This document shows, in pieces, positions 9,588-44,952 of a DNA stretch of 44,952 bases. Both the position numbers and the translations under genes were made by a program. The DNA is from Bacteroidota bacterium. GTDB taxonomy: Bacteria; Bacteroidota; Bacteroidia; UKL13-3. Positions within the stretch are counted from its first letter, which is position 1. Each line of letters starts with the position of its first letter. The notes below the pieces were generated by a model. It did not search any database and was not told the DNA's origin. It was given only the letters and a program-made list of their open reading frames with translations. The stretch lies in contig JAWXAU010000135.1 in assembly GCA_034439655.1 (NCBI GenBank), positions 1-44,952 on the forward strand, written 5' to 3'.

Positions 9588-11354
9588 TTACATGCGTTCT
9601 ACAGCTTCAATACCCAATATATTTAATCCTTGCTTGAGAACATGGGCAGTAAGTTGCGATATTGCTAAACGGTTGTTTTTTATGGCTTCATCGGATTCAC
9701 GAACCAATGGTAATTCATGATATAAACGGTTAAATTCTTTGGCTACTTCATATATATAATTTGCTATAATAGCCGGACTATATAATTTGCCCGCTTCTAT
9801 TATAATACTTGGCCATTTATATATTAATGCCAATAATTCTTTTTCATACTTATCAAATTTTTCTACCAAAACTGCTTGAGGTAATTTACCAAATGTACGC
9901 ATTACCGAACATATACGGGCATGGGTATATTGTATAAATGGGCCAGTATTACCATGCAAGTCTATACTTTCTGCTGGGTTGAAAAGCATACGTTTTTGTG
10001 GGTCAACTTTCAATAAAAAATATTTAAGAGCACCCATACCCAAAGCATGATATAGTTTATTCATTTCTGCTTCAGTAAACCCTTGCGTTTTTCCTAATTC
10101 AGTAGTTTTATCTTTGGCGGCTTGCACCATTTCGTCCATCAATTCATCGGCATCAACCACTGTACCTTCGCGTGATTTCATTTTACCACTTGGTAAATCG
10201 ACCATACCATAACTTAGGTGCATAACGCCCGGAGCATAAGGTTTGCCAAGCTTTTGCAAAATTAATTTTAATACTTTAAAATGATAATCCTGTTCATTTG
10301 CTACTACATATATAGATTTATCATAGCCCACCTCATCATATTTTTTTTGAGCAGTTCCTAAATCTTGTGTTATATAAACAGATGTGCCATCGGCACGCAA
10401 AACTAATTTTTCATCGAGTCCGTCTGCTGTTAAATCTATCCATACAGATCCGTCTGCCTTTTTGTAGAAAACTCCCGATGTCAAACCCTCCTCCACAAAT
10501 TTTTTACCTAATAAATAAGTTTGCGATTCATAATAATAATTATTAAAATCGACCCCCATTCTACTATAAGTTTCTTCAAAACCTTTATAGACCCAGCCAT
10601 TCATCAAAGTCCAAATGCGTAATGTTTCGGCATCACTAGCTTCCCATTTGCGTAGCATCTCCTGGGCCTCTATCATTAAGGGTGCTTGCTTTTCTGCATC
10701 GGCTTCTATAATACCCTTTGCTATTAGTTCTTGCACTTCGGCTCTATAATACTTCTCGAATGCTACATAATATTTGCCAACCAATTTATCGCCTTTAGAG
10801 CCTGTACTTTCAGGAGTTTCCCCATTCCCATAACTCATCCACGCTATCATACTTTTGCAAATATGGATTCCACGATCATTTACCAAATTGGCTTTATATA
10901 CTTGGTAGCCGTTTGCTTTTAAAATTTCGGAAACACTCCATCCCAGTAAATTATTTCTGGTATGGCCTAAGTGCAAAGGCTTGTTGGTATTGGGCGATGA
11001 ATATTCGACCATCACTTTCTGCCCATTTCCTACAGTACCTTTACCGAAAGATGGATTATTATATTGTTCATTTAAAAAATTACTCCAAATATTATCTGCA
11101 ATTACTAAGTTCAAAAAACCCTTCACCACATTAAAACTACACACCACTTTGGTATTGGATATAATATATTCTCCAAGTTCCGCTGCGGTTTGTTCAGGAT
11201 TTTTTTTGCTGATTTTTATATAAGGAAAGACCACAAAAGTATAATCACCCTCAAAATCTTGACGGGTGGTTTCCAATTTAACCCCCTCTGGTTTTGCACC
11301 ATATAGGGTTTCAAATGCTTGTATTATATAGCCCGCAAGCTGATGTTCAATCAT
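9588..11354 (-). CDS. argS: Arginyl-tRNA synthetase
   Basis: A class I aminoacyl-tRNA synthetase that charges tRNA-Arg in the cytoplasm. The 588-residue protein has the N-terminal tRNA-binding Add1 domain (about 1-85), the HIGH signature as HLGH at 128-131 and the KMSKS equivalent as KMKSR at 391-395. The helical DALR anticodon domain fills the C-terminus and ends in GLNILGIEAVERM, typical of ArgS. It is first in the minus-strand series argS-cca-sco-rsmE and diverges from ahcY across a 181-base gap. I found no convincing minus-strand promoter box there. Confidence 0.96.
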   Translation of the reverse strand: MIEHQLAGYIIQAFETLYGAKPEGVKLETTRQDFEGDYTFVVFPYIKISKKNPEQTAAELGEYIISNTKVVCSFNVVKGFLNLVIADNIWSNFLNEQYNNPSFGKGTVGNGQKVMVEYSSPNTNKPLHLGHTRNNLLGWSVSEILKANGYQVYKANLVNDRGIHICKSMIAWMSYGNGETPESTGSKGDKLVGKYYVAFEKYYRAEVQELIAKGIIEADAEKQAPLMIEAQEMLRKWEASDAETLRIWTLMNGWVYKGFEETYSRMGVDFNNYYYESQTYLLGKKFVEEGLTSGVFYKKADGSVWIDLTADGLDEKLVLRADGTSVYITQDLGTAQKKYDEVGYDKSIYVVANEQDYHFKVLKLILQKLGKPYAPGVMHLSYGMVDLPSGKMKSREGTVVDADELMDEMVQAAKDKTTELGKTQGFTEAEMNKLYHALGMGALKYFLLKVDPQKRMLFNPAESIDLHGNTGPFIQYTHARICSVMRTFGKLPQAVLVEKFDKYEKELLALIYKWPSIIIEAGKLYSPAIIANYIYEVAKEFNRLYHELPLVRESDEAIKNNRLAISQLTAHVLKQGLNILGIEAVERM

Positions 11355-12857: not shown

Positions 12858-12890
12858 AAAAGCCGGGCTATACATTGCTCGGCTTTTTTT
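12858..12890 (+). terminator. Intrinsic terminator of ahcY
   Basis: An 11-bp stem AAAAGCCGGGC/GCTCGGCTTTT with one G-T pair and an 8-base loop is followed by a T-run. It begins 18 bases after the ahcY stop. Confidence 0.88.
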
Positions 12891-12942
12891 ATGCCTTATG
12901 CCAATTCTTAAACAATAATAGTTCTAAGCCTGTGGCGGATTT

Positions 12943-13018
12943 GGTTTGTAGAATGTTAATGCCGAACTACAATACGTTTTGTCCCTTTCTTTTGGAATAT
13001 TATATATTGAGTTTCGGT
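12943..13018. repeat. Structured intergenic repeat, copy A
   Basis: Two blocks match copy C at the right edge almost exactly: 12943-12972 (GGTTTGTAGAATG then TAATGCCGAACTACA) and the roughly 38 bases from GTCCCTTTCTTTTGGA to TTGAGTTTCGGT, each with about one difference. The hairpin that sits between these blocks in copy C is missing here and is replaced by about 10 unrelated bases. Copy A directly abuts copy B. The left flank 12901-12924 weakly resembles the left arm of the long inverted repeat before copy C. Confidence 0.75.
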
Positions 13019-13127
13019 GGTAATGCCGAACTACATCCCGAAAGCCCCGCTTAATCCCGATAATTATCGGGATGAGGGGGATTAGTCCCCCTTTTTTTGG
13101 ACTATTATATATTGAGTGTCGGTATTA
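13019..13127. repeat. Structured intergenic repeat, copy B, with extra palindrome
   Basis: The copy starts with GGTAATGCCGAACTACATCC and ends with GTGTCGGTATTA. TAATGCCGAA and TTCGGTATTA can pair as an outer stem (one G-T). TAGTCC/GGACTA forms an inner hairpin at 13083-13104. The other inner hairpin begins as in copy C but has been replaced or enlarged by a perfect 20-base palindrome, ATCCCGATAATTATCGGGAT, at 13054-13073. Together with copy A and the ahcY terminator this accounts for most of the 317-base gap between ahcY and the next gene; I see no reading frame in the rest (13128-13157). Confidence 0.75.
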
Positions 13128-17775: not shown

Positions 17776-20325
17776 TTATTCTTCGCGTCTTGGTTTTATG
17801 TTGAGTTTCCGCTGCAAATATTTAATAAATTTCTTAAATACATTGCCTTTATGTTGATCGTCTTCATCGTAGTATCCGTAGCCGTATCCATAACCATAGC
17901 CGTATCCATAACCATAACTATTACCTCCGTATTGACCACCATAACTGCCATAACCCGAGTAACTGCCATAACCACCATAGCCACCGTAACCATAACCATA
18001 GCCATAACCGGAGCCATAACCATAACTATAGCCGTAACGGTAACTGCTCGAATATATATTTGAGTCGTTTAGTACAATACATGTATTCTTTAGTTTACGC
18101 GTTTCAACCAATCCGTTAATGGCTTGTAGGAAATTCAGCCTCGAATAGTTTTCACGCATTACATACACATTGATATTGGAATAATCCATCAACAAAATAG
18201 CATCGGTTACAAGTCCTAATGGAGGTGTATCAACAATTACATAGTCATACTCTTTTTTAAGAACATCGAACAATATAGGAATTTTGTCACTCGCAATCAG
18301 TTCGGCAGGGTTGGGTGGAATAGGACCTGATGGTATAAAATATAAATTTTCTATTTGAGTAGGTTGAATGATATCTTTTATCTCGGCTTTGCCAATCAAA
18401 TAATTGGTAATACCAATATCATTTTTTAATTTAAAATCTGTGTACAGTTTTGGTTTCCGCAGGTCAAATCCCAATAGCACCACTTTCTTATCGGACAATG
18501 CAAATATTGTCGCCAAATTCATTGAAAAAAAGGTCTTACCTTCGCCACCCACTGTAGAACTAGTAAGTATTACTTTTTTTTCTGACTCTGTCGAAAAATA
18601 CTGTAGGTTAGTCCTTATGGCTCTAAATGCTTCTGCAATATGCGACTTGGGATTATTGTTCACCACCAAATTAATTTTCTTGAAGTTGTGGCTAATAATA
18701 CCAATTAAGGGAACGAGTGAGGCTTTTTCAACTTGGAACCTGTTCCTAATCTTATCATCCAACATATTAATAAGATATATAAGTAGTGAAGGCAAAAACA
18801 AACCTAGCATAATAGCTATGGTATAATTTTGCGATTTTAAAGGTTTAATAATTCCTTTGGCTGTTGCATCATCCACCAATTTATTGTCAGGTATATTGGC
18901 TGCTTTTGTAATACTTAGTTCAGCCCTTTTCTGCAACATATATAAATATACGTTCTCACTAAGGGAGAACCTTCTTTTGATTTGCAGCAATTCACGTTCT
19001 GTATGAGGCACATGTCGAAGTTCTTCTTCAAAAACATTCATTTGCTCTTTTAAGGTGGTAATTGAGCTTTTGGTCGTAAGAATGGTATTATTAATATTTT
19101 CTAACAATAATCTTTTTGTATTCGAAATTTTATCTTTTAAAATTTTGATACTGGGAAAGGCATCTGTAACGTTTACCTGAAGTTCTTTTAGATTACTTTG
19201 GGCACCTCTTAATTCTTCAACAAAGTTCAATACCGATGGATCCTTTACATCTTCGAGTGTGGGTGCCAATAATGTTAAATCTTTATTAAGCACTATATAA
19301 CTCCTCAACAATTCAAGAGAGTTCAGCTTTAATAGTATAGCTTGTTGCTGCCTGTTAATATCGTTGATATTTGTCATGAACTGCCGAGTCTCATCACTCA
19401 GATCCACAAAATTTTTGCTCTCTTTGAAATTCTCCAAATCACTCTCCACACTGTTCAATGAATTGGATATTTCTTCAAGTTGATTATTAATAAATTGAAT
19501 TGATTTTTCCGAAATTTCATTCTTTGTTTCCAGATTTTGTTCTATATATACTTTGCATAGCATATTAAGAAAATCAACACCCTTCTGCACATTGGACGAT
19601 GAAATAAAAATATTTAATAAGTTTGTTTCACGGTCATTTTTTGTGGTGATGGCCTCATTAAATTCCTTAATTAACGCTTCCCTGCTATTTAAAAAAAACT
19701 TGTATTCCCTGCTTTCTGAATTTAATACTTTTTTCAAACTATCGTTTACAGTGAGCACAATATCTCCAAATTTAAACTTGATCATCTGACCGTACTTAAA
19801 AATACCGGAAGAATTATCACCAGTTTTAGGGTCAGTAAAAACTAACTTGAATTCCTTATCGTCTTTGGTTTGTACGTAAAAGGCGTTACCATACGCACTG
19901 CTGTCCTTGATAAGTATATGTGCCTTAAATGGACATTGATTATATATTTCCTGAGTTGAGATATGTCCTATTTCGTAATAGCTAACCGAGAAATCCAGAT
20001 TGCTCAATATCTCGGAGGTGAGCTGGCGTGAGGTTATTATTTGAACCTCGTCGGAAATGGATGACCCAAATTCCACAAAGTTCATGCTCCTATTTTTGTC
20101 GCCCAGTATGGATTGGGCCGATGAGTTTTGCTTATCATTAATCATCACCGAGCAACTCACTCTGTACACAGGAACGGTGTACTTATTAACGAGATATGCA
20201 ACAATCATTGATGAAATGACAATAATGGCATACAAATACCAATATTTGATCACCAAATATATAATGGGCCTAAAATTATATTTTTGCCCTATTCCTGATA
20301 GTATACTTTCTTCCTGACTAGCCAT
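17776..20325 (-). CDS. Wzc-type polysaccharide copolymerase / bacterial tyrosine kinase with Gly-Tyr tail
   Basis: An 849-residue inner-membrane protein of the Wzc/BY-kinase type that regulates chain length and export of capsule or exopolysaccharide. It has two membrane segments (about 23-46 and 501-522) flanking a periplasmic Wzz domain with long coiled-coil-like stretches (about 260-460). The cytoplasmic kinase has Walker A TVGGEGKT (591-598), Walker A' VVLLGFDLRKP (615-625) and Walker B YVIVDTPPLG (695-704). Such kinases end in a tyrosine cluster that is autophosphorylated; here it is expanded to 24 tyrosines in residues 762-819, mostly alternating with glycine, followed by an acidic patch (DEDD) and a basic end. 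It starts 14 bases after wza. Confidence 0.93.
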   Translation of the reverse strand: MASQEESILSGIGQKYNFRPIIYLVIKYWYLYAIIVISSMIVAYLVNKYTVPVYRVSCSVMINDKQNSSAQSILGDKNRSMNFVEFGSSISDEVQIITSRQLTSEILSNLDFSVSYYEIGHISTQEIYNQCPFKAHILIKDSSAYGNAFYVQTKDDKEFKLVFTDPKTGDNSSGIFKYGQMIKFKFGDIVLTVNDSLKKVLNSESREYKFFLNSREALIKEFNEAITTKNDRETNLLNIFISSSNVQKGVDFLNMLCKVYIEQNLETKNEISEKSIQFINNQLEEISNSLNSVESDLENFKESKNFVDLSDETRQFMTNINDINRQQQAILLKLNSLELLRSYIVLNKDLTLLAPTLEDVKDPSVLNFVEELRGAQSNLKELQVNVTDAFPSIKILKDKISNTKRLLLENINNTILTTKSSITTLKEQMNVFEEELRHVPHTERELLQIKRRFSLSENVYLYMLQKRAELSITKAANIPDNKLVDDATAKGIIKPLKSQNYTIAIMLGLFLPSLLIYLINMLDDKIRNRFQVEKASLVPLIGIISHNFKKINLVVNNNPKSHIAEAFRAIRTNLQYFSTESEKKVILTSSTVGGEGKTFFSMNLATIFALSDKKVVLLGFDLRKPKLYTDFKLKNDIGITNYLIGKAEIKDIIQPTQIENLYFIPSGPIPPNPAELIASDKIPILFDVLKKEYDYVIVDTPPLGLVTDAILLMDYSNINVYVMRENYSRLNFLQAINGLVETRKLKNTCIVLNDSNIYSSSYRYGYSYGYGSGYGYGYGYGGYGGYGSYSGYGSYGGQYGGNSYGYGYGYGYGYGYGYYDEDDQHKGNVFKKFIKYLQRKLNIKPRREE
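17868..18050 (-). repeat. Coding low-complexity repeat (Gly-Tyr codons) in the tyrosine kinase
   Basis: The DNA encoding kinase residues of about 759-819 is a near-tandem array of GGN-TAY codons (6-base period), with some Ser, Gln and Asn interruptions. Such a tract can lengthen or shorten by slippage in six-base steps without breaking the frame. Confidence 0.8.
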
Positions 20326-44784: not shown

Positions 44785-44818
44785 AAAAACCCTTGAGTGA
44801 ATGCTCAAGGGTTTTTTT
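44785..44818 (+). terminator. Intrinsic terminator of the rpoBC operon
   Basis: A perfect 13-bp stem AAAAACCCTTGAG/CTCAAGGGTTTTT with a 6-base loop and T-run, 46 bases after the rpoC stop. Confidence 0.93.
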
Positions 44819-44822
44819 ATAC

Positions 44823-44874
44823 CCATTCTACAAACCTAAAATAGTCAAAAGACTATTTTAGGTTTGTAGAATGG
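44823..44874. repeat. Perfect 24-bp inverted repeat with 4-base loop
   Basis: The arms 44823-44846 and 44851-44874 are exact reverse complements around AAAA. The right arm ends in GGTTTGTAGAATGG, which is the start of repeat copy C and is also found in copy A at 12943-12955. It begins right after the rpoC terminator. Confidence 0.85.
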
Positions 44875-44952
44875 TAATGCCGAACTACATCCCGAAAGCA
44901 TTCGGGATTAGTCCCTTTCTTTTGGACTATTATATATTGAGTTTCGGTATTA
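44861..44952. repeat. Structured intergenic repeat, copy C (reaches window edge)
   Basis: This is the clearest copy. The outer stem is TAATGCCGAA (44875-44884) with TTCGGTATTA (44943-44952), one G-T pair. Inside are two hairpins: ATCCCGAA-AGCA-TTCGGGAT (44889-44908) and TAGTCC/GGACTA (about 44909-44929) with a pyrimidine loop. Together these could fold as a three-way junction. The window ends at the last base of the outer stem, so any extension is unseen. Confidence 0.78.

Follow-up and report, generated by a model that had tools for sequence, protein, structure and literature searches.

The window, a stretch of 44,952 nucleotides, forms contig 135 in the draft genome of an uncultured Bacteroidota organism (205 contigs, 3.50 Mb in all). 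As judged by the ArgS-like protein (9588-11354), its closest named relative in GTDB is the uncultured 'Bacteroidetes bacterium' MAG RH-26jul17-255 (89% identity). The minus strand at 17776-20325 encodes an 849-aa exopolysaccharide protein, Wzc-like, whose C-terminal tail is very long and rich in Tyr and Gly. Two repeat elements, both read on the plus strand, were delimited. The first, element AB, occupies 12899-13124 (226 bp) between two copies of the target-site duplication TTA (12896-12898 and 13125-13127), in keeping with the TWA rule that holds family-wide. It is composed of a degenerate module 1 (12899-12958), which carries the left terminal inverted repeat and an internal GCC..GGC hairpin as in the family-consensus fold, a hairpin-less variant of module 2 (12959-13022), and a second module 2 of the long variant (13023-13124), which contains a nested CCCGATAATTATCGGG hairpin and closes with the right terminal inverted repeat. 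The second, element C, occupies 44820-44949 (130 bp) and comprises a module 1 of the palindromic GACTATTTTAG variant (44820-44876) and a module 2 of the short hairpin variant (44877-44949). Its left TTA (44817-44819) is located in the T-run of a terminator-like hairpin 3' of a 1438-aa ORF, named rpoC in the preliminary description, and its right TTA (44950-44952) coincides with the end of the contig.

The repeats of the window are real and far above chance: AATGCCGAACTACA occurs at 12958, 13022, and 44876 with 0 mismatches (0.27 occurrences expected at up to 2 mismatches), and the 25-mer GGACTATTATATATTGAGTTTCGGT is present three times (0.00 expected). These shared blocks had been recognized in the preliminary description and assigned to three copies, two of them adjacent (A and B, 12943-13127) and a third (C) starting at 44861. 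Copies A and B are instead the duplicated module 2 of a single element, and the start of C is at 44820; only the edge of a larger repeat family had been caught, and the figure of three copies was a large undercount. Bases 44855-44952 are identical (98/98) to two more genomic copies. Near position 12890, DNA similarity to both same-genus genomes ends within about 10 bases of the insertion of element AB, and the sequence about 2.5 kb beyond this insertion is placed elsewhere in both genomes, which marks a rearrangement point near the element.

The further copies that had been anticipated were found in the home genome, where a blastn search with copy C returned 51 matches; the same query had 0 matches in 39 relatives, among which two same-genus genomes were included. 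A right-end pattern of 23 bases (up to 3 mismatches) matched the home genome 232 times and a left-end pattern 245 times, and the reversed-pattern controls gave 0. The right-end pattern had 0 matches in G001, G002, and G006, and the left-end pattern had 0-2 matches per genome, which is chance level, in 63 other genomes of the family. A 133-base consensus had no match in 394 sampled genomes of the class, for each of which the two best candidates were scored. The exact 24-base right end was absent from 84,980 GTDB species genomes, a set to which the home genome possibly does not belong, and a slightly shorter form was absent from IMG/VR viral contigs; plasmid, viral, and GTDB scans with the repeat likewise gave no match. 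About 230-245 copies are therefore carried by one 3.5 Mb genome, with none in two same-genus species or in any other genome searched, and the expansion is limited to one species among these genomes. At about 135 bp per copy, the elements would amount to approximately 0.9% of the genome. Because contig ends fall within element copies (18 of the 86 examined), part of the fragmentation of the draft can be attributed to them.

Element anatomy was determined in 1.04-1.21 Mb of the genome sequence. Complete elements are 117-219 bp long, begin with TACC and end with GGTA, and have no coding capacity, being too short and variable for a transposase gene. Their terminal inverted repeats, as judged by inspection, are imperfect and 26 bp long with 20 of 26 positions paired (TACCAATTCTTAAACTATAATAGTTC versus TACCGAAACTCAATATATAATAGTCC). 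In the usual layout, module 1 is followed by module 2. Module 1 (59-60 bp) has the structure TACCAATTCTTAAACTATAATAGTT-CTCCGCCTGTGGCGGA-TTTAGTTTTTAGAATGGTA with two main loop types, and module 2 (57-103 bp) consists of ATGCCGAACTACA, a variable hairpin, and TTAGTCCCTTTCTTTTGGACTATTATATATTGAGTTTCGGTA. The latter exists in three main forms, namely without the first hairpin, short with ATCCCGAAAGCATTCGGGAT, and long with the nested CCCGATAATTATCGGG, and the compound arrangements m1-m1-m2, m1-m2-m2, and m2-m2 were also found. Within module 1, GGTTT accompanies AACC in 10 of 14 cases versus AAAC in 18 of 70, which may represent subfamily linkage. The element appears to be a fusion of two palindromic modules, each of which resembles a shorter and older unit of its kind, and inner hairpins appear to have been swapped as blocks among copies. 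A second, related-looking repeat beginning with TACCAATACTCATTATAAAATAATCCAATTA was observed at L100:11409 and 14603 and on the minus strands of L113 and L018; the copy at L100:11409 is complete at both ends, measures about 86 bp, and is flanked by a TTA duplication, and this repeat is possibly an older sister MITE family.

Exact 3-bp direct repeats flank 40 of 48 complete elements (TAA/TAA in 25, TTA/TTA in 15), and flanking repeats of any other length are almost absent from this set. Among 74 unique elements, a larger set, the duplication was exact in 51. The middle base of the flanking triplets is identical on the left and right in 51 of 69 cases, compared with a mean of 34.4 in shuffles, and a value of at least 51 was reached in 1 of 10,000 shuffles; TWA is thus a duplication and not an extension of the inverted repeat. 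Where the duplication is not exact (23 of 74 elements), the element is in some cases an internal module of a compound one, and other cases may be recombinants or misassemblies. Two unoccupied sites were identified. The element at L118:4519-4651 corresponds in the same-genus genome G002 to an ungapped read-through (L141:4611-4709, 74.7% identity) with a single TAA, which looks like part of a coding sequence, and the element of L030 corresponds to a 97% identical paralogous site on its own contig, which is element-free and has a single TAA. A nested insertion is present in L217 (about 2737-2862), where TATTATATATTGA is split into GGACTATTA (TATTA on the left) and TTATATATTGA by an element, with TTA duplicated. 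Other comparisons of both flanks with G002 were mostly uninformative because the intergenic DNA is too divergent. Independently of one another, the intact paralogous site, the intact site in a related species, and the insertion of one element into another establish TWA as the target-site duplication, and the repeat is therefore a MITE, that is, a non-autonomous DNA transposon. Our confidence in this assignment, leaving aside the superfamily of the mobilizer, is very high. The family is a new, large, and species-limited one of a well-known kind, and the early suggestion of a non-autonomous mobile element was right, as judged from the terminal inverted repeats, the TWA duplication, and the unoccupied sites.

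No autonomous copy with the ends of the element was present in the 1.21 Mb of the genome that was read. Searches of the whole genome for five transposase domains yielded only truncated, frame-disrupted, or contig-edge genes of the IS4/IS5 type, or nothing; the profiles with matches (PF01609, PF13586, and PF13359) were examined, and no rve transposases were detected. Several candidates were rejected. The IS1182-like gene C95 is truncated and followed by a MITE, but the ends of the element do not bound the gene; the IS4-like IS C83 has a broken gene, is inserted within a MITE hairpin, and lacks these ends; and the IS5-like genes C98, C19, and C168 are disrupted by another IS or by the edge of a contig. 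Long pairs of terminal inverted repeats at L121 and L217, although suggestive of autonomous elements, each proved to be two separate MITEs flanking ordinary sequence, the sequence of a 604-aa ORF in L217 is not that of a transposase, and TACC ends are lacking from the IS5 genes of G001. An IS4-like IS with 17-bp ends (CCTATCGTGTGGACACA) and an interrupted transposase frame lies at L125:428-1861 in the hairpin loop of a MITE module 1. Draft assemblies of this type often lose or break IS elements that are present in many copies, so the absence of a mobilizer is weak evidence.

A resident multi-copy IS5/ISL2-like IS with the ends AGACCTCTTTCATAATT, found at many contig ends of the home genome, was considered as the element that moves the MITEs, having the commonest IS end in the contigs read, the right superfamily, and a duplication that is also 3 bp long and A/T-centred. 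This is unlikely, since the inverted repeat of this IS is unlike TACC... and, as deduced from landings inside MITEs, it duplicates ATT/AAT (AWT) and not TWA. Its ends occur, with ATT duplicated, at the same spot in the right end of the MITE, between TATATATT and GAG, in L090 and L101 (left junctions) and in L093, L103, and L107 (right junctions), and a different IS end (AGACCATTACTTAACCC) is located at this spot at the left junction in L026. The MITE seems to serve as a landing pad for ISL2-like elements.

Placement was counted per available TWA site using ORFs from a simple caller. There are 27 elements per 1492 sites in convergent gaps, 44 per 5013 in tandem gaps, and 4 per 2071 in divergent gaps, and 3 elements were found inside predicted ORFs, which contain 50,737 TWA sites. 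Coding sequence and divergent (promoter) gaps are avoided, as would be expected had the elements inserted into AT-rich DNA and then been subject to purifying selection, although insertion may also have been targeted. The strong enrichment between convergent relative to divergent genes, together with the GC hairpin and subsequent T-rich tract of module 2, would also suit elements that had been co-opted as transcription terminators or 3'-end stabilizers of mRNA. We regard such co-option as improbable, given that the T-rich tract shows no strand bias with respect to tandem genes (15 on the same strand, 19 on the opposite one), that the stems are not maintained, and that the distribution is equally well accounted for if coding and promoter DNA are avoided. 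The proximity to intrinsic terminators that had been pointed out for the window is correct for both of its elements but does not extend to the family: terminator-like hairpins were found at 5 of 80 element-facing gene 3' ends versus 74 of 1245 control sites. A preference for the neighbourhood of terminators was therefore rejected; that both copies in the window have one beside them is coincidental.

The outer stem enclosing two hairpins that had been proposed is recovered in the predicted fold of the short-form module 2, both as DNA and as RNA, and folds better than shuffled sequences; it represents, however, an internal module, and the ends of the element lie outside it. A transcribed structured RNA under selection for this three-way junction, which the preliminary description had offered as its other reading, is very improbable. 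When the covariation analysis suggested there was carried out on unique copies, stem pairing was hardly above that of column shuffles (1525 of 1617 paired cells versus 1517.5, 614 of 644 versus 611.7, 480 of 522 versus 476.9, and 416 of 450 versus 416.5). Double changes in the stems are few, stem positions vary without compensatory change, one class of module 2 lacks the first hairpin, and no Rfam family was matched. The copies decay like neutral DNA. Least credible of all is a REP/BIME-like or IS200/IS605-derived repeat that a Y1 (TnpA-REP/RAYT) transposase would mobilize as a folded DNA single strand, a reading with which the nested palindromes, the strong folding of the single strand (z -3.5 to -6.5), and the location in intergenic DNA and at gene 3' ends would agree, but not the inverted-repeat ends, the 3-bp target duplication, and the clean unoccupied sites, nor the search for the TnpA-REP/IS200-like transposase that had been envisaged, which detected no Y1_Tnp (PF01797) in the home genome while its control was positive in 5 known genomes. 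To our knowledge, IS200/IS605 and REP/RAYT elements have no terminal inverted repeats and make no target duplication, and a mechanism of this type is excluded because the present elements duplicate their target.

For the MITE, the TWA duplication points to a DDE transposase of the IS5/PIF-Harbinger superfamily as the putative mobilizer, a proposal for and against which we see about equal chances; the gene may be missing from the fragmented draft or may have been lost. PIF/Harbinger, which is placed together with bacterial IS5, is defined by its TWA duplication (PMC4482050), and the 3-bp duplication found here is of the kind, TWA (or TNA/ANT), that characterizes IS5/PIF-Harbinger (PHIS) elements. 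The duplication of bacterial IS5 is given as ANT (PMC4482050), and because typical bacterial IS5 ends are unlike TACC (PMC4596501), the duplication is the one feature by which the superfamily is suggested. More tentatively, and with somewhat less than even expectation, the family could be a bacterial counterpart of Tourist MITEs, in which an IS5-superfamily transposase with the TWA specificity of PIF/Harbinger and unusual TACC ends would have expanded a palindromic MITE of modular build within a single species, and inner hairpins would have been exchanged during transposition or by conversion. A conspicuous repeat is thereby explained as a mobile element that makes up about 1% of one uncultured Bacteroidota genome and is absent from its same-genus neighbours. 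With a clear high-copy bacterial MITE that duplicates TWA in hand, a concrete search for the responsible transposase is now possible, the question being which enzyme of the lineage makes TWA duplications at TACC ends.

Tourist-type MITEs of PIF/Harbinger (PHIS; PMC4482050) share the TWA duplication, the short terminal inverted repeats, and bursts of non-autonomous copies with the present family, but they are eukaryotic, and no transposase ties the two together. The MITEs of Porphyromonas gingivalis (MITE239, MITE464/PgRS, MITE700, and BrickBuilt; PMC4596501) are likewise intergenic, have an affinity to the IS5 family, and reside in a Bacteroidota host. They are present in about 10-20 copies each and have terminal inverted repeats matching known ISPg elements (PMC4596501), whereas the family described here has 230-245 copies, terminal inverted repeats beginning with TACC, and no parent IS found. 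ERIC, Correia/NEMIS, RUP, BOX, and QMITE2 of Coxiella (PMC10969869) are similarly short, non-coding, mostly intergenic, and of high copy number, with terminal inverted repeats and target duplication. Since ERIC reaches 711 copies in Photorhabdus (PMC10969869), the copy number reported here, though high, sets no record. A preference for 3' ends is likewise seen in QMITE2, and pneumococcal elements also insert into one another (PMC10969869). Compared with this group, the present family is unrelated in sequence and is distinguished by its 3-bp TWA duplication, its two fused palindromic modules, and its exchangeable inner hairpins.
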